From the IMG/VR virus record IMGVR_UViG_3300030107_006338, positions 1-24,459 of that record: a stretch of 24,459 nt of DNA; one strand, 5' to 3'. Below the pieces are notes generated by a model that saw only the letters and a list, made by a program, of their open reading frames with translations, had not been told where the DNA came from and did no database searches. Both the position numbers and the translations under genes were made by a program. This DNA is from a virus. Shown here piece after piece: positions 1 to 17,226 of the stretch; the first letter of the stretch is position 1; each line of letters opens with the position of its first letter.

Positions 1-1309
1 CCCCTTCTTGCATGTAATTACAAGCATCCTCAGCAGCATCAACCCATTTCTGCTTATAAACTAATTCAGCACATACACTATGTAAGTCTTTGTTCTCTTC
101 AAGCGCTTGAATCCATACAGGATCCTTAGAGCCAAATGCTATTACATTTAATTCTTGACTAGAATAATCTGAACTTACAAACACCCAATCTTCCGGTGGT
201 ATGAAACAATTTCTAAATATATTATCAGCAGGAATTTGTTGCATATTAGGATTGTTAGAACTAATACGACCAGTATCTAATATTTGATGAAAGTTAGTAT
301 GAATTTTGCCATCACTCTTAAAGTATTTGAAGAATGGCTCACCATATGAAGTATATAACTTCATATATTCTTTATATTTAATATATTTCTTTACTAACCC
401 ATAAGAAGCATATTTATATAATTCTTTGCCATTCACATTTTCAAGATTTGGAATGATAACTTTGAATACATTTAATACTTGTTTGGGTGAATCCCAATTC
501 ACACCAACTTTCCTCAATTCTTTCTGATCCGTAAACAAATCACCTTGTACCCATTTTAATACAAACATTTGTAATCTAGGATCATTTATTACCATATTAT
601 CTAATAAATTATAATAATCTTTTGATTTATTTTCATTTATTTTACTTACTTCTAACCACTTATCCCTATCTAAATCTAATCCATTATATTCTATTTCAGA
701 CAATGCTAATACAGCTTTATTTTCTAACTCTACTACATTATCTAATTTTTGTTCTATTATTTGATTTAGTTGGCATTCTCTTATATTTACCAAATGCTTT
801 ACATCTTCAGCACCATATTTTATTTGTACATCAGTATAAGGTTTGCCTTGTAAATTTATAAATTGATTTCTTACTTCTTTATCTAATTTTAAATTAAAAT
901 AATGTTCTACCAACGCGTCCAAAGCATATTTTTTATTCTTTTTACCACAATTAAGTATCCTTTCAACCAAATATGTATCATATACATTATATAACGATAT
1001 GTTTGACCATCTTTTAATAAATTTATAATCGAATTTAGCATTTTGTAATATTTTTATTATTTCATTGCTCTCTAATATATTTTTTAAAGGAGAAATATCT
1101 ACATATCTAGTGTCAATAACCCATTGATGTTCATTGTTTCCAATTTGAAACATTATCATCTTTTTACAAGTAAAGTCCATTCCTTCTGTTTCAGTATCAA
1201 CAGCTATTACATCTTGAGTTTCTAAATAATTAATAGCACTATCTATATTAGCCATTGAATCTGTTTTATTTCTCAAGTTTAAACTATCATTTCCTATAAA
1301 ATGTATCAT
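1..1309 (-). CDS. DNA polymerase, family A, with 3'-5' exonuclease (3' end off window)
   Basis: Replicative polymerase of the Pol I/T7 family; 436 codons are visible, and the C-terminus (O-helix and last catalytic carboxylates) lies beyond the left edge. The three exonuclease motifs are readable: VDTETEG (D38, E40), NAKFDYKF (D94) and YGAEDV (D169). The polymerase domain begins with TGRISSNNPNMQQIP, and motif A is SSDYSSQELNVIA with the metal-binding Asp at D381. The start ATG at 1309 overlaps the stop of the upstream 75-residue gene in an ATGA, so the two are probably translationally coupled. The intact DTE and NAKFDY motifs suggest active proofreading. The family call is firm; its role as the phage replicase is inferred. 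Confidence 0.93.
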   Translation of the reverse strand, partial: MIHFIGNDSLNLRNKTDSMANIDSAINYLETQDVIAVDTETEGMDFTCKKMIMFQIGNNEHQWVIDTRYVDISPLKNILESNEIIKILQNAKFDYKFIKRWSNISLYNVYDTYLVERILNCGKKNKKYALDALVEHYFNLKLDKEVRNQFINLQGKPYTDVQIKYGAEDVKHLVNIRECQLNQIIEQKLDNVVELENKAVLALSEIEYNGLDLDRDKWLEVSKINENKSKDYYNLLDNMVINDPRLQMFVLKWVQGDLFTDQKELRKVGVNWDSPKQVLNVFKVIIPNLENVNGKELYKYASYGLVKKYIKYKEYMKLYTSYGEPFFKYFKSDGKIHTNFHQILDTGRISSNNPNMQQIPADNIFRNCFIPPEDWVFVSSDYSSQELNVIAFGSKDPVWIQALEENKDLHSVCAELVYKQKWVDAAEDACNYMQEG

Positions 1310-2496: not shown

Positions 2497-2519
2497 GACA
2501 TATAGTTTTGTGCATACAT

Positions 2520-2559
2520 GTGTTGTTGAGACAAGACCTTAAACTTATCTCAACAACAC
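2520..2559. other. 12-bp perfect hairpin between two small genes
   Basis: GTGTTGTTGAGA (2520-2531) pairs perfectly with TCTCAACAACAC (2548-2559). Inside the loop AAG/CTT can add three more pairs after one mismatch. No T-run follows on either strand, so it is not a standard intrinsic terminator. It could be an RNA processing or stabilising stem, or a protein-binding site. Confidence 0.5.
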
Positions 2560-2577
2560 TCAATGCTAGTTATTTAT

Positions 2578-2850
2578 TTATTTGTTTATTCCATAATATT
2601 TTTCCTCGATTACATTCCATATTTTGAGGAAGACAGGTATAATTAGTATTAGCACACATATACCACCTAGAAGATATAAGAATGCTAATTCATAACTCCA
2701 CCCACCTACTAAAAATACAATAAACAGATAAATGAAATAAAAGCCACCAAAAAGAACAGCCAATAAATATGACAGTACTATGACAACAGTTGATAATTTA
2801 ACTACAACTGCAGTTAAATATTTTACGATACTAGTGATATATTTTCCCAT
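2578..2850 (-). CDS. integral membrane protein, 90 aa, three predicted helices
   Basis: Very hydrophobic protein with predicted membrane segments near residues 12-34 (VVVKLSTVVIVLSYLLAVLF), 36-50 (GFYFIYLFIVFLVGG) and 55-78 (AFLYLLGGICVLILIIPVFL). A short charged tail (EEKYYGINK) follows. Size and topology would fit a holin-like or superinfection-exclusion protein, but there is no lysin neighbour and no recognised family. The leader is A-rich (ACCTTTAAAAATTAAAATC) without Shine-Dalgarno. It follows two exported-protein genes and a 55-aa gene, so this stretch of the left arm looks directed at the cell envelope. Confidence 0.65.
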   Translation of the reverse strand: MGKYITSIVKYLTAVVVKLSTVVIVLSYLLAVLFGGFYFIYLFIVFLVGGWSYELAFLYLLGGICVLILIIPVFLKIWNVIEEKYYGINK

Positions 2851-2886
2851 GATTTTAATTTTTAAAGGTTAGTAATAATTAATAGT

Positions 2887-2954
2887 AGTCCTGAAAGGCT
2901 GTCATCCTTTATATACCCCATTTCGATTTTGTAGTGCGACAATTGCACAGGACT
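2887..2954 (-). other. possible structured RNA (branched hairpin) in an intergenic gap
   Basis: AGTCCTG (2887-2893) can pair with CAGGACT (2948-2954). Directly inside this stem are two small hairpins: AAAGG/CCTTT (2894-2898 with 2906-2910) and TGC/GCA (2935-2937 with 2945-2947). Together they could form a three-way junction in the 119-base gap before the membrane-protein gene. The helices are short, so the call is tentative. Confidence 0.3.
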
Positions 2955-2969
2955 GAGGAGATGAGAAAT

Positions 2970-3137
2970 CTATTTCCCACCTTTCCTTTTATTAAATACT
3001 TTATCAACAGCTTCATCAGCTTTAGATAATTTATATTTATCAGTTGTTAATTTAAAGTATTTAATATCTCTGTTTTTTATCCTAGCAAGATGCGAGAGTT
3101 CCATCTTGCTAAGGATATCTTTCAATTTATTTGCCAT
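2970..3137 (-). CDS. hypothetical basic protein, 55 aa
   Basis: The ATG at 3137 opens a 55-codon frame ending in TAG at 2970-2972. The protein is helical and lysine-rich: MANKLKDILSKMELSHLARI, then KYKLSKADEAVDKVFNKRK and a GGK end. It starts two bases after the stop of the transglutaminase-like gene, so the two are almost certainly cotranscribed. An unusually stable hairpin (14 bp with one bulge, 3079-3116) falls within codons 8-20. No family is recognised; a small nucleic-acid-binding role would suit the charge but is a guess. Confidence 0.55.
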   Translation of the reverse strand: MANKLKDILSKMELSHLARIKNRDIKYFKLTTDKYKLSKADEAVDKVFNKRKGGK

Positions 3138-3139
3138 AA

Positions 3140-3922
3140 TTAATTTAATTTATTTGATACTAATTTATTTATTCTCTCTGCTGCAGATTTGGATACTAAT
3201 ATGTGTTCTATGGATCTATTTGCAGATGGATTATAGAACTCAACCATTAAACAATGTGCACAATCATAGTCATATTCTTGACAGTCATGAAAGCAACAAA
3301 AGTTATACTCTTGTGCATAAAATTCATCATATGTATTGTCTATTGTTATAACAATCTCTTCTTTACGATCATTAACATACATTGGAATATGTACCTCTGA
3401 CCAAGCATGTCCTCCATCAGCTAATATATAAGATTCAACTCCCATATGTCTTAGCAATGAAACAAATGCCATTTCTCTTTCTGCACACCATCCAAATGTA
3501 TAAAAGTCTATTTCTTTTTCTCCAACCTCACACTCATAAGAGTATTGAGGTTTATTTGATACAAGATCAGACAAGAATACTTCAGGTGTTCTATCTCTTA
3601 ATACTACATTATCAGGAGCAGAGATATAATCTCTTGAATTGCTCCAAAAGTATGGTATTTCTAAGATACCACTAGCACTACAATCCATTGATTCAGTAGT
3701 AGTAAATAGTTTATGTAAGAAATATAATTTATAAAATGTACCTTTATTGTGTGTGTTATTCTTATCAATTCCATGTTGATCACAAAATAAATTATATACT
3801 TCTTTATAACTTTGTTCTATCTTGATTGAATTCTCTGAATATAATAAATCAAAGAAATTAACCACATTTATTTGTGCAAATCCATTGACACAAATAAATA
3901 AACTAATCATTATTGTTTTCAT
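3140..3922 (-). CDS. secreted transglutaminase-like (papain-fold) protein
   Basis: A 260-residue exported protein. Residues 1-17 (MKTIMISLFICVNGFAQ) form a signal peptide with a typical Bacteroidota cleavage site after AQ. The catalytic core follows the transglutaminase-like Cys-His-Asp order: FGWCAERE with C146, GGHAWSEV with H172, and ITIDNTYDEF with D195. A Cys-rich loop follows (CCFHDC, then CAHC, roughly residues 209-224), which may form disulfides or bind metal. Members of this superfamily include transglutaminases, peptidases and cell-wall amidases, so the substrate could be a host envelope protein or peptidoglycan. It is preceded at 16 bases by a lipoprotein gene. The fold call is good; substrate is unknown. 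Confidence 0.78.
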   Translation of the reverse strand: MKTIMISLFICVNGFAQINVVNFFDLLYSENSIKIEQSYKEVYNLFCDQHGIDKNNTHNKGTFYKLYFLHKLFTTTESMDCSASGILEIPYFWSNSRDYISAPDNVVLRDRTPEVFLSDLVSNKPQYSYECEVGEKEIDFYTFGWCAEREMAFVSLLRHMGVESYILADGGHAWSEVHIPMYVNDRKEEIVITIDNTYDEFYAQEYNFCCFHDCQEYDYDCAHCLMVEFYNPSANRSIEHILVSKSAAERINKLVSNKLN

Positions 3923-3938
3923 TTTATTTATTTTTTAA

Positions 3939-4076
3939 TTATTTATATACCCCATTTTTATTAGGTTTACCTGTTCCCCAACAAGTGCTTGCCATCCCTG
4001 ATGTAGCACAAGATGTGCATAGCAATAAATTCAACAGTAATATTATTGCTATTTTAACTATTCTGCTCTTTGTCAT
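3939..4076 (-). CDS. small lipoprotein, 45 aa
   Basis: The ATG at 4076 opens 45 codons ending in TAA at 3939-3941. The N-terminus is basic (MTKSR), followed by a hydrophobic stretch (IAIILLLNLLL) and CTSC, a lipobox-like site with C23 (or C20) as the probable lipidated Cys. The mature peptide is about 23-26 residues and ends TGKPNKNGVYK. It lies upstream of the secreted transglutaminase-like gene in the same transcript, so both products would leave the cytoplasm. Its job is unknown; a surface-exclusion or accessory role is possible. Confidence 0.65.
   Translation of the reverse strand: MTKSRIVKIAIILLLNLLLCTSCATSGMASTCWGTGKPNKNGVYK
3942..3957. repeat. 16-bp repeat shared with 2908-2923
   Basis: TTTATATACCCCATTT occurs here, covering the last codons of the lipoprotein gene, and again at 2908-2923 in a noncoding gap. 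In both places the minus-strand reading would be NGVYK, so the distant copy may be a remnant of a similar gene end. Confidence 0.55.
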
Positions 4077-4146: not shown

Positions 4147-4154
4147 CAAATATA
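4147..4154 (-). promoter_or_regulatory. probable -7 box of a flavobacterial-type promoter
   Basis: The minus-strand octamer TATATTTG is identical to the -7 box of the polymerase-leader promoter. It lies about 70 bases upstream of the lipoprotein start and directly after the terminator-like hairpin of the SSB-like gene. No TTG is found at the expected spacing, so the match is partial. Confidence 0.4.
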
Positions 4155-4155
4155 A

Positions 4156-4189
4156 AGTGAGCAAAGAGGATATTTCTACCCTCTTCACT
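4156..4189 (-). terminator. hairpin after the SSB-like gene, likely terminator
   Basis: AGTGA and AGAGG (4156-4160, 4165-4169) pair with CCTCT and TCACT (4180-4184, 4185-4189), with a 4-base bulge on one side. On the minus strand the stem is followed by TTTATATTTG. It starts 15 bases after the SSB-like stop codon. The tail is only moderately T-rich. Confidence 0.5.
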
Positions 4190-4204
4190 CATCTTTATGC
4201 ACTA

Positions 4205-4834
4205 TTAGAATGGTTTTTCAGCTGTTACTTCCACTTTGTCAGCAGACACTCCTGAATTGGCTTGTGTCAGCGTCTCCTCTGCGTCAGCAGTCAGCATTAA
4301 ATCTTCATCCCAACTTTCAGCTTGTTCGATAGGAATGTCAACCACAAACTTGTGCATAAAGATGTAATTACCTTTATGAAGGATGTAATCCCCATCTTTA
4401 CCCGCTCTCTTAGCGTATTTCTCAGGCTCTTCAGCTTCAAATTCAGTTGGCGTAGTTGTTTCTACTACTTGTATCCTAACTAAATTGCCATTATCCTTAC
4501 ATCTCGGGTTAAGAATGTTAAGTGCCATTCTTTCCTTGCCGTCAGGCCCTATTTCCCACTTATCAGACGAAGCTGAACAGTCTATTCCAAACAGTTTCTC
4601 TGCGTCTTTGGTTTCTACTCCCAACCACGCACGAGTAGCCTTGGATGAAAACCTATCATCTGAAGCATTTAATCTTGCTACTAAAGAGTTCGATGAAGAG
4701 CCTTTCTTCTCTGCAAAATGTAACTGAACTTTATTAGGGTTCTTGGTCTTGATTGCCTCAACCAATAAAGAACTCTTTGGTATTAGTGCCTCAATAGTTC
4801 CGCTATTAAGCACATTTTTAATTGTTGTATCCAT
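4205..4834 (-). CDS. probable single-stranded DNA-binding protein
   Basis: A 209-residue soluble protein, first gene of the left arm beside the divergent promoter/origin region. The body mixes beta-like stretches (KVQLHFAEKK, GDYILHKGNYIFMHKFVVDI) with polar loops. The C-terminal 30 residues are acidic (ESWDEDLMLTADAEETL) and the protein ends EKPF, resembling the acidic tail and Pro-Phe tip that bacterial and phage SSBs use to recruit partners. GC content and codon use are visibly higher than in neighbouring minus-strand genes, as in the capsid gene, suggesting a highly expressed product. No canonical OB-fold signature can be proven by eye, so the SSB call rests on tail, size and context. Confidence 0.45.
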   Translation of the reverse strand: MDTTIKNVLNSGTIEALIPKSSLLVEAIKTKNPNKVQLHFAEKKGSSSNSLVARLNASDDRFSSKATRAWLGVETKDAEKLFGIDCSASSDKWEIGPDGKERMALNILNPRCKDNGNLVRIQVVETTTPTEFEAEEPEKYAKRAGKDGDYILHKGNYIFMHKFVVDIPIEQAESWDEDLMLTADAEETLTQANSGVSADKVEVTAEKPF

Positions 4835-5603: not shown

Positions 5604-5879
5604 ATGACAAAGAAAATAAACTTTAAACCTTATGGACAATGGATATTGCTCCCTAATCCCACACAATTAGAAACAGATTCTGGTATTATTTTAGATGAAA
5701 AGACTGCAAGGTCCCAAACTACAAATGTATTAAAAGTAGTAGCTTTAGGGCCCGAATGTAAATTCTGTAAAGTTGGTGAAACTGTAATGGTGGATCCTAC
5801 TATAGAGGCTAGGGTATTACATTTAGATGAGGGAGAATTTATATTAGTAGCAGAATATCAGATATTAGGTAAATTCTAA
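5604..5879 (+). CDS. GroES-like co-chaperonin (Cpn10)
   Basis: 91 residues, close to the usual 95-100 of GroES. The order of elements fits the family: an N-terminal strand (FKPYGQWILLPNP), a mobile-loop region ending in SGIILDEKTA (residues 26-35, matching the canonical GGIILP), VVALGP after it, then KVGETVMVDP and the C-terminal EGEFILVAEYQILGKF, equivalent to EYLIVRESDILAIL. It would cap host GroEL to help fold a phage protein, probably the capsid protein, as T4 gp31 does. First gene of the right arm, with its own promoter. The next gene's ATG overlaps its stop by one base. Confidence 0.8.
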   Translation: MTKKINFKPYGQWILLPNPTQLETDSGIILDEKTARSQTTNVLKVVALGPECKFCKVGETVMVDPTIEARVLHLDEGEFILVAEYQILGKF

Positions 5880-10989: not shown

Positions 10990-11063
10990 GGTCACGTAGC
11001 TCAGCTGGATAGAGCATCTGCCTTCTAAGCAGACGGTCACAGGTTCGAATCCTGTCGTGATCA
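10990..11063 (+). tRNA. tRNA-Arg (anticodon UCU)
   Basis: 74 bases folding as a full cloverleaf. Acceptor GGTCACG pairs with CGTGATC (one G-U), discriminator A, D-arm GCTC/GAGC, anticodon stem TCTGC/GCAGA with loop CTTCTAA, T-arm ACAGG-TTCGAAT-CCTGT. The 3' CCA is not encoded. UCU reads AGA, by far the commonest Arg codon here, so it supports phage translation. It starts one base after the TerL stop. Confidence 0.97.
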
Positions 11064-11072
11064 CAATGTAAG

Positions 11073-11167: not shown

Positions 11168-13546
11168 ATGTATTTAGGTTCAAATAAAATCCCAAAACAA
11201 AAATTACCCCTTAGTAAAAAGACTAAGAAATGGAGAGAAGAATGCGTAGAGGCATATATAGATCTTTCCACAGCTGGTTACAGTGAAAGACGTGACTGGC
11301 TAAAAACTTTATATGATTATTATAACGGTGTGATCGATGAAGCAGATTATAGATACGTACTCAAGCCTTACGGTAAAACAAGGCAAAATTTCCCCTCTAA
11401 GATGCGTAACTATCCTATCATTAAACCTATTATAGATCTGTTACTCGGAGAGAAGTCTAAAAGACCTCTCAATTACACCGTTACCGTACAAAATTCTGAT
11501 GCAATTACTATTAAAGAGCAGGCGAAATCAGAATTATTAATGAAAAACTTTCAACAACAGTTTATGAACCAGGCAAATGCAAGAGGAGCTAAAACAGGAG
11601 TTCCTACTCAGCCAGTTCAGCCGCCTGCTCACATAGCACAAATGTTTGAAAATAACTATGTGGATAATAGAGCTATAAAAGGTCAACAGGCTATGAATTT
11701 TATAGAACAGCACCAAGAGATATACGATAAGCTGCAAAAAGCTTGGTTTCATTTTTTAGTGGCTGGAGAAGTATATACTTGGAGAGGAGTTCGTAGCTCA
11801 GAACCTTTTTATGAAATATTAAATCCTTTAGATATTGATTATGATAAAGATCCAGATGTAGAGTTTGTAGAAGATGGGGATTGGGCTTTAATTAGAAAAT
11901 ATGTTCATGCATCTACAATTATAGATCATTATAGAGATTATTTATCTGATGAAAATATATTAAGATTAGAAGAACCTGAACATGCTAGTATGGATTCATA
12001 TCTAACTATGGCTAATAGGTCAGATGATAGAGAATTGTATAGAGAAAGATTAATTGAAGTAGTTAGTGTGTATTGGAAGAGTAGAAAAAGAATAGGATTT
12101 TTAAATTATATAGATCCAGAAACAGGAAGTTGGGAGCAGCAAAGAGTCGATGAAAAATTTAGAATGCCTGCAGAAATGAAACAAACAGGAGCTAAAGTAG
12201 AATGGGAATGGATTAATGAAGTATGGGAAGGTACAAGAATAGATGGTAATTTATATATTAAAATGGAACCTTGTACAAATCAAAGGACTTCCATGGATAA
12301 CCCATCTAAATGTAAACTCCCAATTAATGGAAGAAAATATTCAGATCTAAATTCTAAAAATATATCTATGGTGTCTCTTGGAATACCATATCAATTAAAT
12401 TATAATATTTATAAATATAGATTAGAATTAGCTATAGCAAAAAGTAAAGATATAATTGCTCAATTTGATATTAATATGATCCCTAAAAAATGGGATATGG
12501 ATAAGTTTATGTATTATGTAGAAGGTACAGGTATTGCTTGGGTAGATTATAATAAAGAAGGAATACAATTATCTCCTCAACATCAAGGAGTATTAGATTT
12601 GTCTATTAAAACAATTGAGCAGTATATAGTTCTTTTAAATTCTATAATGGAAGAATGGGAAAAAGTATCTGGAGTAAATAGACAAAGACAGGGTATGGTT
12701 GGAACATATGAAGGTAAAGCAACATCTCAACAAGCTATTGTACAATCATCTCATATTACAGAAGATCTATTTAGAAAGTTTTCTAGATTAGAACAAAGAG
12801 ATATGCAAGCATTATTAGACTATTCTAAAGAAGCATGGTTAACAGGAAAGAAAGGAATGTATGTAATGTCGGATGGAACTAAAGAGTTATTTGATCTTGA
12901 CAGTCTTCAACATATGGAATCAGAATATGGAATATTCTTATCAGATTCTGGACAAGATCAAGATAAATTAGATATATTAAAACAACTTGCTCAATCTATG
13001 GTTCAAAATGGAGTACCTGCTTCTACTATTGCAGAAATGGTTGATGCAGATAACTTTAGTCAAATTAAAGAAAAGATTAAAGGTGCTGAAAAAATGCAAC
13101 AACAATTAGCACAAGCTCAACAAAAAGCAGAAGCTCAACAACAAGAAGCTCAAAGACAACTTGAAAGGGAAAGAATAGAAAATGAAAATATGAATCAAGA
13201 AAAAGATAGAGAGACTAAAATACGTGTTGCAATGATACAGGCTGAAGCTAAGATGATGGATAATGCATATGATTCAGAAAAATCTGTAAGAGATGCTAGT
13301 ATTAAACAAAGGCAAAACGAATTAAAGACAGAAGATATAGTAGAAAAAGCTAGATCTAATAGAGCAAAAGAAGATTTAATAAGAGAAGATCAAAGATTAA
13401 AAGAAGAAAAAGAGGGTTCTGATAAAAGAGAAAGATCGGCAGATAGAAGACAGGCTAAAGAAGATAAAGAAAAAGATATAGAAATTAAAAAAGAAGATCA
13501 GGCTATAAAAAGAAAGGCAGCTGCAAACAAACCTAAATCTGAATAA
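11168..13546 (+). CDS. portal protein (crAss-like)
   Basis: 792 residues, in the size range of crAss-like portals. Near residues 79-100 it reads NYPIIKPIIDLLLGEKSKRP, characteristic of this family, and the middle carries the long mixed core that forms the dodecameric DNA channel. A glycine-poor, Gln/Lys/Glu-rich coiled coil fills residues 640-792 (QQQLAQAQQKAEAQQQEAQR and beyond), likely reaching into the capsid or holding cargo. The first 150-200 codons use more CGT, GCG and CTC than the AT-rich remainder. Its stop overlaps the next ATG by one base (TAATG). Head-tail vertex gene following TerL and the tRNA. Confidence 0.9.
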   Translation: MYLGSNKIPKQKLPLSKKTKKWREECVEAYIDLSTAGYSERRDWLKTLYDYYNGVIDEADYRYVLKPYGKTRQNFPSKMRNYPIIKPIIDLLLGEKSKRPLNYTVTVQNSDAITIKEQAKSELLMKNFQQQFMNQANARGAKTGVPTQPVQPPAHIAQMFENNYVDNRAIKGQQAMNFIEQHQEIYDKLQKAWFHFLVAGEVYTWRGVRSSEPFYEILNPLDIDYDKDPDVEFVEDGDWALIRKYVHASTIIDHYRDYLSDENILRLEEPEHASMDSYLTMANRSDDRELYRERLIEVVSVYWKSRKRIGFLNYIDPETGSWEQQRVDEKFRMPAEMKQTGAKVEWEWINEVWEGTRIDGNLYIKMEPCTNQRTSMDNPSKCKLPINGRKYSDLNSKNISMVSLGIPYQLNYNIYKYRLELAIAKSKDIIAQFDINMIPKKWDMDKFMYYVEGTGIAWVDYNKEGIQLSPQHQGVLDLSIKTIEQYIVLLNSIMEEWEKVSGVNRQRQGMVGTYEGKATSQQAIVQSSHITEDLFRKFSRLEQRDMQALLDYSKEAWLTGKKGMYVMSDGTKELFDLDSLQHMESEYGIFLSDSGQDQDKLDILKQLAQSMVQNGVPASTIAEMVDADNFSQIKEKIKGAEKMQQQLAQAQQKAEAQQQEAQRQLERERIENENMNQEKDRETKIRVAMIQAEAKMMDNAYDSEKSVRDASIKQRQNELKTEDIVEKARSNRAKEDLIREDQRLKEEKEGSDKRERSADRRQAKEDKEKDIEIKKEDQAIKRKAAANKPKSE

Positions 13547-16500
13547 TGTTAACAAACGAACAGAAATTAGATATAATGAAGCAAGCCTTTGAAGAAGGCT
13601 ATGATGGTTTTATGAGCGATCTTTGGGCTCAAGCTGATCCTCAAGAAGCAAGGAATATACAAACAGATCCTTCTTACCCTCCTTTATCCTCAACAAGTCC
13701 AACTGTACCAAATATAAAAAATGAATCTAGTCCTGCACCAATATCTAATATGTCTGCAGAAGAAATTCCTAATTCCCAAAGTTTAGTACAAAGTTATGAG
13801 TCTGCAAATATAGGAGAAATGCCTATGGGTGCAAATGTCCCAATGCAACTAGATGAACCAAACAGTTATAAAAAAGGTGGGTATAAAGTAAGTAATTTAA
13901 TAGGATTTAAACCAGATCTTACAGATATAAGTCCTAGAAATTATTTAAAGAATTATAAAAGATACGAAAGTGGGGGAGTACAAAATTTTATACATAAAGA
14001 TGATTATAAATTAGAAGATAACAAAATTGATCATTTAGAAAAAGTAAAACAGGCAACTTCACAACAACAGCAAAGAACTTATGATCCTTTAGGATTTGCA
14101 GGATACTATTATCAATCTCCTAAACATAGAGAACGATTAGAAAAAAGAGGTTATTCAGATGAAGAAATAGAACAAAGATCTGAATTTGTATCAGGATATG
14201 GATTAAGTAAAGGCCCAAAAATAGTAGATAGAACTGGTACTTCAGGAAGTAGAGCTTACCCGAAAAAAAATAAAATTGTAATGGACTTGGAGACAGATAG
14301 AGCAAGAGCTCCAAAAGTTACATACGATGAAATATTAGCTCATGAACTTGGTCATTTATCTACAGGATATACACCTTTAAAGAAAAAGGACGTTAAAGAA
14401 ATTGTAGATAGAAGTCAAGTACCTATTAAAGACGAACAAAATGATTATTTTGCATCAGAAATAAAATCTGATTTAGACTCAATTAGGTTTATGTTATTTA
14501 ATGCAGGAATTTATGATGCGGGTAAAGAAGATTTTGATTGGTATGATCTTAACCAAGCTAAAGAAAAATTAAAAGAGTCTCCTACATTTAGAAGAGTAAT
14601 AGATACTTTTGAAGATAATGATTTTATGTGGTTGATGAATAATATAGCAATGGAGGATTTAGAAATTCAAGATGGATTAGCTTTGAAAATGCCAAAGACA
14701 AGAGCTAGATTTGGGGGTAAAAGAAAGAAATATTTTGAAGGGGGAATATCAGGAGAAACAAGTGCACCTGTAGAGCAAATGTCTGATGACCAATTAAAAG
14801 CAATAATAATTGGTGAAGACTTTCACGATAGTTTTTCTGTGGAAGGACAAAATGCGCAAAGGCAACTTGACGCAAGATATGGAGAAGGTAATTGGGAAAT
14901 TGTAAATGCTGCTAATTTTAATTTAAATCAAACAATTCATCCACAAGGTGGGCCTGAAGGTTTTATAGGGCCAATCGCAAATAGAGGGGATTACAATCAT
15001 TACTGGGATTCTGAAGCACATCCAGGTACAGGACCAACTAATCAACCAGCAATAGATTTCTTTAGTGGTTTATCAGATGTTTGGCCTGAAAATATGGGAC
15101 CTAATACAGATATTATACTTTGGGGTCATACTTGGGAGCCGGGTACGGGAGCTAGTGATGAAGCTGCTTTTATGGGACATCCTTATATTGAAACAAAAGA
15201 AGGTGTAGATCCTTCAATAATGGATCCAGATAGTTGGGCTGAATTTATGGGAAGTCAACTAGAAGAAGATTGGGCAGGATGTATGTATTTTGGAACTTGT
15301 GGGGGAGGGGCAATAGGAAAAGGATCAGGTGTTCCTGTTAAGGGCTCTACATGGGAAGATGATATTAGTCTTACTGGATTAACAACCCCTATGCAGGACT
15401 TTACTACTCAGTTATCTGAGTTACGACCAGGAGATTTATATGGTTCAACTTATTATGCGCCAACAGAAACATGGTATGGGACTAAACTTAGTAATTATTA
15501 CCCATTTAAAACATTTGGATTTGACCCAACTACAAGAGCTGATGATGATGCTTTTGCAGGTACTATGTTTGATCCTTTAGAAAAAACAATGTCTTCAGTA
15601 TATGATGATGCATATGAAGTAGGAAGCCCATATCAAAAAATTACATTACAAGAACCTGGATTTGGTTATGATGGTTCAGAAGTTTCTCCTTTAGATATTC
15701 AATATTCTCAAACAGGTACCACGGAACTTGGTTATGATTATCCTGTGAAAAAGAGGTATAGTCCTACAAGTGGGTATGGTGAATCTTTCCCATTTTATGG
15801 TTCTTATGGGTATACTGATTTTCATAGGAGTGTCAGTGAGGCTTACAATTCTTTTCATCACAATAAACCGTATTATTTTGAAAGAACTGGTGGTCCAAGA
15901 AAAAAATATCCTCATGGAGGATTTCATAATCCGCTTTCTGCCCGAACTTTAATAGGCCCAAATCTTACAAAACCCATAGTTAATGCAATAAGTAATATTT
16001 TTTTTCCAGGCGCAGATAAATTTCATAATTGGACAAAAGAAAAAGGACTTACAACCCCAACTACAAGAGGAGGAACTTTTAGACCAGGTGTTGGGGGAAC
16101 ATATGAATCTCATCCGCTGAGACAACAAATAAATTTACCAGATTATCCTGTAGATGGTAGTAAATCAGAAATAGATCAGTGGTATGATACTGCAGGTCAT
16201 GAGTGGTTTCATCATCTTCAAGCACAAACGGGAAGATTAGCACAAAAAGAAATAAGACAAAATCCAGTAGCTTTAAAAGGTAAAGATATTGTAGGGCCAA
16301 TTAGTAAAGAGACTCAAGATTTACATTTTGGTGCAAGAGGTACTGATTTTGATCATGAAGTAGAAGAAATAGAAAACGATCTTATGGAATCACTTAGTAT
16401 TCCTGAAGCTTCACTTCTTAGCGAGAATCAAAGGATTGCATTATTAAACAATAAAACTCCAAGATGGGCACACAGATTGGCAGGACTGCCTAGTTTTCCT

Positions 16501-17226
16501 TCAAGATCAGGACAACATACTAATATACGTAATGAGGCTAACCAAAGATTGTATGAACATTCTCATACAACAGAAGGAGAGGCAAGAGATGTGGAAGAGG
16601 ATATAGGTGGAAATCAAGTCTTTAGAAGTTATTTTGATAAATATCATAAACCAAATGTCATAGCAGATTTTGAAAATCAAGCTCCACTATCAGCAGCAAA
16701 TGCTTATGTAGGAAATATTAGTGATACAGATAGAATAAGAAATGAAGTGTGGGGACAATTTGTTAAACCGGGAAATTTATATAATCCTAATATAACTAGA
16801 AAGTATTATAATGATGGTGGACCTCGTGATTTTAAAAATATAAAAGAGGCTTCTAAAGTTTATGCTGATAATTGGGGAATAAAGAATAAACAAGCATTAA
16901 ATATCTTAAAAGATATGAATTACAATGTTGGTGATACTGTTATGTTTTCTAGTTTAAGGGGTCCTGGTGGAGATAGCATGTTAAGAACACAAAATGAGCT
17001 TAATACGTATGATTATATGACAGAGTTATATCCTGAAATTATAGGTCCTGATGGAGTTTATGATATGGATTTAATGAATCAAAAAATGAAAGAGCATGGG
17101 TATAAAGATGAGTATGGTAATATTAAGAATTATAAAAGATGGAGTGTTGGAGATTTGAAGCTTCATCTATCAAAACTTTCTAAAACAGGTAATTTTAGAA
17201 ATGGAGGACTAAGAAGAAAAAAATAA
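13546..17226 (+). CDS. giant multi-domain virion-type protein with two HExxH metallopeptidase motifs
   Basis: 1226 residues, translated directly after the portal (one-base overlap). Residues 1-110 are Pro/Ser/Gln-rich and flexible. Around 266-270 lies AHELGHLSTGY, and around 885-890 AGHEWFHHLQAQTG: two HExxH zinc-peptidase-like motifs in separate regions. A middle section (about 400-790) is rich in Gly, Trp and Tyr and holds DIILWGHTW (H528) and GCMYFGTCGGG (C579, C585). Short Gly-Gly linkers with a Lys and a nearby aromatic recur at 111, 143, 399, 791, 1091 and 1220 and divide the protein into blocks. Between portal and scaffold it is likely packaged or part of the virion; enzymatic roles are inferred. 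Confidence 0.7.
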   Translation: MLTNEQKLDIMKQAFEEGYDGFMSDLWAQADPQEARNIQTDPSYPPLSSTSPTVPNIKNESSPAPISNMSAEEIPNSQSLVQSYESANIGEMPMGANVPMQLDEPNSYKKGGYKVSNLIGFKPDLTDISPRNYLKNYKRYESGGVQNFIHKDDYKLEDNKIDHLEKVKQATSQQQQRTYDPLGFAGYYYQSPKHRERLEKRGYSDEEIEQRSEFVSGYGLSKGPKIVDRTGTSGSRAYPKKNKIVMDLETDRARAPKVTYDEILAHELGHLSTGYTPLKKKDVKEIVDRSQVPIKDEQNDYFASEIKSDLDSIRFMLFNAGIYDAGKEDFDWYDLNQAKEKLKESPTFRRVIDTFEDNDFMWLMNNIAMEDLEIQDGLALKMPKTRARFGGKRKKYFEGGISGETSAPVEQMSDDQLKAIIIGEDFHDSFSVEGQNAQRQLDARYGEGNWEIVNAANFNLNQTIHPQGGPEGFIGPIANRGDYNHYWDSEAHPGTGPTNQPAIDFFSGLSDVWPENMGPNTDIILWGHTWEPGTGASDEAAFMGHPYIETKEGVDPSIMDPDSWAEFMGSQLEEDWAGCMYFGTCGGGAIGKGSGVPVKGSTWEDDISLTGLTTPMQDFTTQLSELRPGDLYGSTYYAPTETWYGTKLSNYYPFKTFGFDPTTRADDDAFAGTMFDPLEKTMSSVYDDAYEVGSPYQKITLQEPGFGYDGSEVSPLDIQYSQTGTTELGYDYPVKKRYSPTSGYGESFPFYGSYGYTDFHRSVSEAYNSFHHNKPYYFERTGGPRKKYPHGGFHNPLSARTLIGPNLTKPIVNAISNIFFPGADKFHNWTKEKGLTTPTTRGGTFRPGVGGTYESHPLRQQINLPDYPVDGSKSEIDQWYDTAGHEWFHHLQAQTGRLAQKEIRQNPVALKGKDIVGPISKETQDLHFGARGTDFDHEVEEIENDLMESLSIPEASLLSENQRIALLNNKTPRWAHRLAGLPSFPSRSGQHTNIRNEANQRLYEHSHTTEGEARDVEEDIGGNQVFRSYFDKYHKPNVIADFENQAPLSAANAYVGNISDTDRIRNEVWGQFVKPGNLYNPNITRKYYNDGGPRDFKNIKEASKVYADNWGIKNKQALNILKDMNYNVGDTVMFSSLRGPGGDSMLRTQNELNTYDYMTELYPEIIGPDGVYDMDLMNQKMKEHGYKDEYGNIKNYKRWSVGDLKLHLSKLSKTGNFRNGGLRRKK

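Follow-up and report, generated by a model that had tools for sequence, protein, structure and literature searches.

A crAss-like phage fragment carries the gene of a putatively secreted transglutaminase-like protein with membrane-anchored relatives in Bacteroidota

Introduction

The pseudomurein endoisopeptidases PeiW and PeiP are linked to the transglutaminase-like fold. Both are lysins of archaeal phages, and the available excerpts connect these phage-encoded proteins with transglutaminase-like cysteine peptidases (PMC4592898, PMC2989375). Genes of the BTLCP type (BTLCP/Peptidase_C93, the group of LapG and HvyA) are named as the commonest auxiliary gene of river phages in the accessible part of one survey (PMC11283719). 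Transglutaminase-like genes in phages are therefore not new, and with PeiW/PeiP and the river-phage genes at hand, the original prediction that the locus studied here resembles no described phage system was too strong for the enzyme class. Within the searches made, the particular family and its placement in a crAss-like phage appear new; a transglutaminase of a crAss-like phage was not found in the literature searched, which lay mostly outside subscription journals.

By analogy, the closest functional precedent would be the control of capsulation by HvyA. According to the accessible text, this Caulobacter protein of 272 aa carries a signal sequence but lacks a lipidation signal, requires each of its Cys, His and Asp residues, prevents capsulation and renders Caulobacter sensitive to phage phiCr30 (PMC4241560). 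For crAss001, sensitivity is reported to be governed by capsule phase variation (PMC8375218), and a phage enzyme acting like HvyA could therefore, by analogy, switch surface display. Phage-encoded lipoproteins for superinfection exclusion are represented by the Ltp type of phage TP-J34; in the available part of its description the host is Gram-positive, the phage is temperate and no enzyme partner is mentioned (PMC3952083).

Compared with these systems, the enzyme analyzed here, P0002, resembles HvyA in its size, its signal sequence, the lack of a lipid anchor and the Cys-His-Asp residues, and presumably also in its location. HvyA, however, is the product of a bacterial gene, and neither P0002 nor its seven relatives match a BTLCP or Peptidase_C93 Pfam model at E ≤ 1; P0002 has the predicted signal peptide and the triad of this group, but not the Pfam match. 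PeiW/PeiP and Ltp are likened to the present proteins by description, not by sequence.

Results and Discussion

Genomic context

The window, i.e. the whole stretch of DNA that was analyzed, is a virus fragment of 24,459 bases. Its terminase, portal and major capsid proteins match the PHROG families phrog_6681, 6547 and 11589 with E values of 2.4e-133, 1.5e-125 and 2.7e-88, respectively, and a tblastn search with the capsid protein matched 143 phage records, all with less than 60% identity and chiefly crAss-like, Bacteroides and Flavobacterium phages. Judged by these order-typical proteins and the presence of two divergent arms, the window is a fragment of a crAss-like phage (Crassvirales). The structural genes lie on the plus strand, the minus strand carries a family-A DNA polymerase gene together with the lipoprotein and enzyme genes, and the sign of the GC skew flips near 5 kb, between the arms.

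2-1309, minus strand: family-A DNA polymerase (family search)

The accessible part of a Crassvirales review describes the same two-arm layout, with the regulatory and replication module transcribed early or in the middle phase (PMC10136315). In view of this description, the term early arm is a fair inference for the enzyme locus; its predicted position in the polymerase-side arm was supported.

On the plus strand, the first gene of the arm encodes a GroES-like protein (5604-5879; NCBIfam E = 3.7e-5, Pfam Cpn10 E = 1.4e-3). A tRNA-Arg (tct) gene at 10990-11064 (+), between the terminase and portal genes, is 91% identical to the tRNA of the Shewanella phages Thanatos-1 and -2. The 1226-aa protein encoded between the portal and capsid genes (13546-17226, +) contains the sequences HELGH and HEWFH, which we take to be metalloprotease-like HExxH motifs.

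The enzyme gene

Both ORFs on which the prediction had been built were found on the minus strand, at 3140-3922 (260 aa) and 3939-4076 (45 aa). The gap between them measured the claimed 16 bases, with the lipoprotein gene upstream.

3140..3922, minus strand: P0002, 260-aa putatively secreted transglutaminase-like protein (ORF, relatives, profiles, fold comparison)
3875..3922, minus strand: predicted Sec signal peptide, P0002 residues 1-16, MKTIMISLFICVNGFA followed by Q (read from the sequence)
3485..3487, minus strand: codon of C146, putative nucleophile, motif FGWCAEREMA, at the N-terminal end of a predicted helix
3407..3409, minus strand: codon of H172, motif GGHAWSEV, at the start of a predicted strand
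3338..3340, minus strand: codon of D195, motif TIDNTYD, at the end of a predicted strand
3251..3289, minus strand: H212-x-C214-x6-C221-x2-C224 (alignment of phage and bacterial proteins)

P0002 begins with MKTIMISLFICVNGFAQ. The export signal that had been proposed was recovered as a signal peptide ending in GFA/Q, and the protein of a second phage (locus L003) keeps the type with GFS/Q. Likewise, the codons of C146, H172 and D195 were located at the expected positions. The three residues are invariant in all eight sequences of the family (two phage and six bacterial), and the triad is therefore not a chance pattern. The complete set of residues invariant in all eight comprises Y91, R97, R111, P113, F116, L117, D119, L120, Y127, F143, G144, C146, E148, E150, M151, A152, L156, H172, D195, T197 and Y230. 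The cluster H212-x-C214-x6-C221-x2-C224, on the other hand, is invariant in both phage proteins and absent from the six bacterial relatives; these residues possibly form disulfides or a metal site.

Relatives in phages and bacteria

To survey related phages, 80 loci were collected through relatives of the window's terminase. By tblastn, the enzyme was encoded in one of them, L003, whose terminase is 92% identical. Recognizable parts of the arm were present in 26 of the 80 loci, and the enzyme was missing from 25 of these 26 related intervals. A profile search of 41 whole records, many of which are fragments, detected it in two, namely the window and the contig of L003, the two proteins sharing about 47% identity over the alignment. 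Viral contigs were also scanned with words, profiles and motifs. While words of P0002 found nothing, one real match each was obtained with words of alignment A1 (104 stretches), alignment A2 (23 stretches), alignment A3 (6 stretches) and the motif WCxExEMA (22 stretches), and the motif WCxE...HAWxEV gave a single match; all real matches came from the contig of L003. Scans of genome contigs returned nothing real, and the seven stretches found in one of these scans contained no transglutaminase in the frames read. Because the enzyme is very rare in phages (two found), it is no core phage function.

A profile of the two phage sequences was run over a phylum-wide sample of Bacteroidota (395 genomes) and gave matches in 15 genomes at E ≤ 0.1. 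Convincing matches (E = 1.4e-12 to 2.1e-7) were located at four places in two genomes (L092, L093, L107 and L108). These are full-length relatives with a hydrophobic N-terminus, which share the three residues and the motifs of P0002 but differ in having a C-terminal transmembrane (TM) segment as anchor and HVRTQV or HVQTAV instead of HAWSEV as the His motif. With a six-sequence profile, matches at E ≤ 0.01 were obtained in 4 of 395 genomes from the class around a Chitinophaga centre, which we take to be Bacteroidia; two of them were convincing (E = 2.2e-42 and 4.9e-40) and two weak.

The two convincing ones, L141 and L142 (genomes G864 and G679), are the nearest bacterial relatives and full-length homologues of P0002 with identical motifs. 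Their identity to the phage enzymes is 33-35% overall and rises to 44-48% in the part that starts with the DRTP motif and extends slightly beyond the triad Asp. L142 starts with MKIFTTISIFILLLISC/RQDN and reads as a clear lipoprotein; L141, in which FLLQSC/NSS is found without an ATG start, also reads as a lipoprotein. They differ from P0002 in this lipobox anchor, in being single chromosomal genes and in lacking the HxCx6CxxC of the phages.

In the genome sets searched, the family was counted in 2 of 395, 2 of 195, 2 of 2, 1 of 12 and 1 of 108 genomes; it is rare in bacteria. The bacterial neighbours, whose translations were read by eye, look like housekeeping genes, and no pairing with a lipoprotein gene was seen among them. 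A tree built from all eight proteins, midpoint-rooted for drawing purposes only, separated the phage pair and L141/L142 from the four TM-anchored proteins with a split support of 100/100. The phage enzyme thus appears to derive from membrane-anchored envelope proteins of Bacteroidota that form a rare family.

Superfamily assignment

Direct searches with P0002 found 0 families in Pfam, a single weak match in PHROG (E = 0.15) and no match among phage sequences by tblastn. Overall, neither the lipoprotein nor the enzyme of the window had a weighty match in Pfam, PHROG, NCBIfam, PADLOC or the PDB. Even at a threshold of E ≤ 10, the Transglut_core model (PF01841) had no match in the 41 phage records. 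With the L003 enzyme as tblastn query, one Vibrio phage match was obtained and dismissed as chance (E = 9).

The relationship emerged from the bacterial members. Three of the four TM-anchored relatives match Transglut_core with E values of 4.5e-4 to 5.2e-3, their scores of 17.5-20.9 bits lying below the cut-off of 23. In an hmmscan of the eight-row alignment A3, Transglut_core was matched by four of the eight rows, and the only families listed for the eight members at E ≤ 1 were Transglut_core, Vac_ImportDeg and DUF6886. The eight-sequence profile was then aligned by hhalign with a Pfam-matched Transglut_core alignment (9 of 15 domain loci, selected for covering the motif). The match had a probability of 96.1% (E = 3.2e-9), and Cys, His and Asp of the two alignments coincided. 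The probability was 73.9% for the two phage proteins alone and 0.2% with an unrelated control alignment.

In a profile search of the PDB, mouse peptide:N-glycanase (PNGase) was the top match, at E = 0.0051 for the six-sequence profile and E = 0.0092 for the eight-sequence profile. A structure model of P0002 based on the two-sequence alignment was of modest quality (pLDDT 54, pTM 0.60), while a single-sequence model (pLDDT 35) was of no use. In the former, C146 lies close to the beginning of helix 142-159, strand 172-183 begins with H172, and strand 186-195 ends with D195. Foldseek returned no match to this model at E ≤ 0.001 in the PDB or BFVD. Re-examination of the Foldseek candidates with VIA-align, where Z values below 8 are not strong and can reflect a common arrangement, again ranked mouse PNGase (2f4m) first (Z = 6.1, 151 residues, 5.2 Å). 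Each of the 12 best rows, with Z values from 6.1 down to 4.2, belongs to what we take to be the transglutaminase/NAT/papain-like class, and TdT comes next. Since the sequence profile and the fold comparison both point to PNGase, we accept the superfamily. These data support the prediction that P0002 has a transglutaminase-like fold in which Cys, His and Asp form a papain-like triad; the absence of such a fold, which would have spoken against the prediction, was not the outcome. Within the searches made, P0002 appears to represent a new, as yet unnamed family of this superfamily, common to phages and Bacteroidota lipoproteins.

PNGase was the best solved structure by sequence profile as well as by fold comparison, and its catalytic core (2f4m, 1x3w, 3esw) aligns with Cys, His and Asp of P0002. 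This raises the question of whether P0002 is itself a glycoamidase of the PNGase kind, removing glycans from envelope or capsule-linked glycoproteins of the host. We consider this improbable. Both matches are weak, with E = 0.005-0.009 in the profile search and Z = 6.1 in the fold comparison, and the similarity in sequence, of about 70 residues, spans the shared catalytic core alone. Moreover, HxWxEV is general to the transglutaminase-like superfamily, and its Trp is absent from the relatives of two genomes (HVRTQV/HVQTAV). PNGases serve the disposal of misfolded glycoproteins in eukaryotes, whereas the known protein glycosylation of Bacteroidota is mainly O-linked.

The hairpin-bracketed block and the lipoprotein

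In the window, the enzyme gene lies between two hairpins, together with the genes of the lipoprotein, a 55-aa ORF and a 90-aa membrane protein.

4205..4834, minus strand: 209-aa gene, kept in the arm of relatives (family search, locus comparison)
4149..4198, minus strand: strong, terminator-like hairpin separating the 209-aa gene from the lipoprotein gene (-25.7 kcal/mol, z = -7.0)
3939..4076, minus strand: P0001, 45-aa small lipoprotein-like ORF, LLLCTS/C (ORF and lipobox reading)
2970..3137, minus strand: 55-aa ORF that immediately follows the enzyme gene, without a TM segment or a known family
2578..2850, minus strand: 90-aa multi-span membrane protein, encoded at the end of the block
2514..2563, minus strand: hairpin closing the block, loop AGTTTAAGGTCTTG also in L003 (about -25 kcal/mol, z = -4.8)

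The corresponding block of L003, between hairpins at 5747-5796 and 3762-3811, contains five ORFs, namely a 57-aa ORF, a 75-aa lipoprotein, a 70-aa membrane protein, the enzyme and a 99-aa ORF. The 90-aa membrane protein of the window is the positional counterpart of membrane proteins of 68-75 aa in the relatives. The 70-aa protein of L003 is 32% identical (E = 2e-6) to one in the enzyme-free locus L007 and shows a faint likeness (E = 0.01) to the 90-aa protein of the window. We read the block as a slot for envelope genes with exchangeable content and the enzyme as its recent cargo.

Hairpins with a (T)TTAAGGT-like loop recur in this arm, mostly just downstream of a small membrane-protein gene. 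They were located in the window (2514-2563, -), L003 (3762-3811), L004 (5374-5424), L005 (3131-3182), L006 (574-624), L007 (3934-3984), L017 (5476-5526), L019 (5606-5656), L020 (3769-3819) and L021 (5615-5665). The loop AGTTTAAGGTCTTG is identical in the window and L003, and the stems have changed. These hairpins are possibly a terminator or a regulatory RNA of the phage group; an Rfam search over the window matched the tRNA alone and none of the hairpins. Another hairpin (3069-3118, -; -21 kcal/mol) lies within the 55-aa ORF. Sigma-70-type promoter sites showed no excess (16 versus 17.8 in shuffles). The 13-mer ATGGGGTATATAA occurs exactly twice in the window, at 3943-3955 and 2909-2921 (-), each time shortly upstream of the start of a block gene; with two mismatches there are 6 matches versus 1.5 expected, and its 11-mer core was not found in the other 160 loci. 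A second lipoprotein near 2850-3016, suspected from this repeat, was rejected as the frame is closed.

P0001 has the sequence MTKSRIVKIAIILLLNLLLCTSCATSGMASTCWGTGKPNKNGVYK. The hydrophobic core and the lipobox Cys of the predicted signal are present, and a loose signal of this kind appeared on the coding strand in 0.2% of 1000 Markov-1 versions of the window interval. In the window and the 26 related intervals, 13 lipobox ORFs passed the loose filter, all of them on the coding strand. The signal is probably real, but it is not a textbook lipobox: PROSITE-type patterns exclude Cys at position -3, and P0001 passes only the loosened version.

The prediction further held that lipoprotein and enzyme form an adjacent pair. 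Both enzyme-bearing phages do have a lipoprotein in the hairpin-bracketed block, and lipobox ORFs occur in 0 of the 7 closest enzyme-free relatives (L004, L005, L007, L017, L019, L020 and L021, several of which are near-duplicates). Adjacency, however, did not survive the comparison, since in L003 a membrane-protein gene lies between the two genes, and the lipoproteins of the window and L003 have no detectable similarity. Lipobox ORFs are also present in at least 11 of the 25 related intervals without the enzyme, and the bacterial relatives stand alone amid what seem to be housekeeping genes. The two genes may thus be unrelated neighbouring cargo in a variable slot, each acting separately, with the lipoprotein serving, for example, as an exclusion lipoprotein. 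We regard the odds of this as even, and mere neighbourhood as at least as likely as true partnership. This possibility denies the partnership alone and is compatible with most other readings of the locus.

A constant signal with exchanged mature parts was observed among the lipoproteins of the related loci. The shared signal MNSNYTLKD...WLTSC precedes two unrelated mature parts, in proteins of 167 aa (L033 5939-6442, L036 3852-4355, L060 5495-5998 and L061 5736-6239) and 46 aa (L038 1817-1957, L043 5056-5196 and L046 5921-6061), an apparent domain swap.

Putative role in the host envelope

We tentatively propose that P0002 is an amide-bond enzyme of host origin that works in the periplasm and remodels the infected cell's surface, and assign a probability of about 0.4 to this reading as a whole. 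A crAss-like phage would have acquired the secreted enzyme from the Bacteroidota family of membrane-anchored envelope proteins and would express it from the two-hairpin block of the polymerase arm, along with two other small proteins of the block, the lipoprotein and the multi-span membrane protein. Once exported by the Sec route, the enzyme would remain in the periplasm, where Cys146, His172 and Asp195 may act on an amide bond in a host envelope protein by cleavage, deamidation or transfer. The infected cell would thereby present an altered surface, e.g. in the display of capsule or receptor, which would limit the adsorption of further phages or tune the infection. Superinfection exclusion would be a plausible benefit. 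An envelope role is suggested by the signal peptides in both phages and by the anchors of the relatives, which are lipids (clearly in L142) or C-terminal TM segments.

A more specific version would be a switch similar to HvyA, in which the lipid anchor was exchanged for free export, the enzyme stops capsule or receptor display and the block lipoprotein acts as docking or specificity partner; there is only a slim chance that all of this applies. In that case the phage would alter the same surface property that determines infection by crAss-like phages; capsule type governs infection in the cultured crAss-like cases. Envelope remodelling in general would offer a defined, mutable handle on surface alteration by crAss-like phages, a process that is little understood, within a family that is common to phages and Bacteroidota lipoproteins and has a phage-specific cysteine cluster.

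An exported enzyme of host origin, in an arm that is early or middle by analogy with the Crassvirales review, might also be anti-defence or metabolic cargo that inactivates a periplasmic defence or sensor protein of the host and leaves the surface unaltered. No specific target is indicated, however, and a PADLOC search with five proteins gave no match, making this rather unlikely.

The combination of lipoprotein, membrane protein and exported enzyme in one block is also what a lysis module could look like, with the enzyme as a peptidase cutting peptidoglycan cross-links, the lipoprotein as a spanin-like outer membrane partner and the membrane protein as a holin, and archaeal transglutaminase-like phage lysins exist in PeiW/PeiP. 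Such a function is unlikely, given that the genes lie in the polymerase arm and not among the late genes, where the accessible part of the review places lysis in crAss-like phages (PMC10136315), and that 25 of the 26 related intervals do without the enzyme. Furthermore, the late arm of the L003 contig encodes a holin-like protein (PF11351, 24.5 bits at a cut-off of 24.8) and a DUF5675 protein. This late arm also contains a gene for a thioredoxin with a signal peptide (L117:3570-3950, -; PF00085, E = 3e-9), which might act on periplasmic disulfides.
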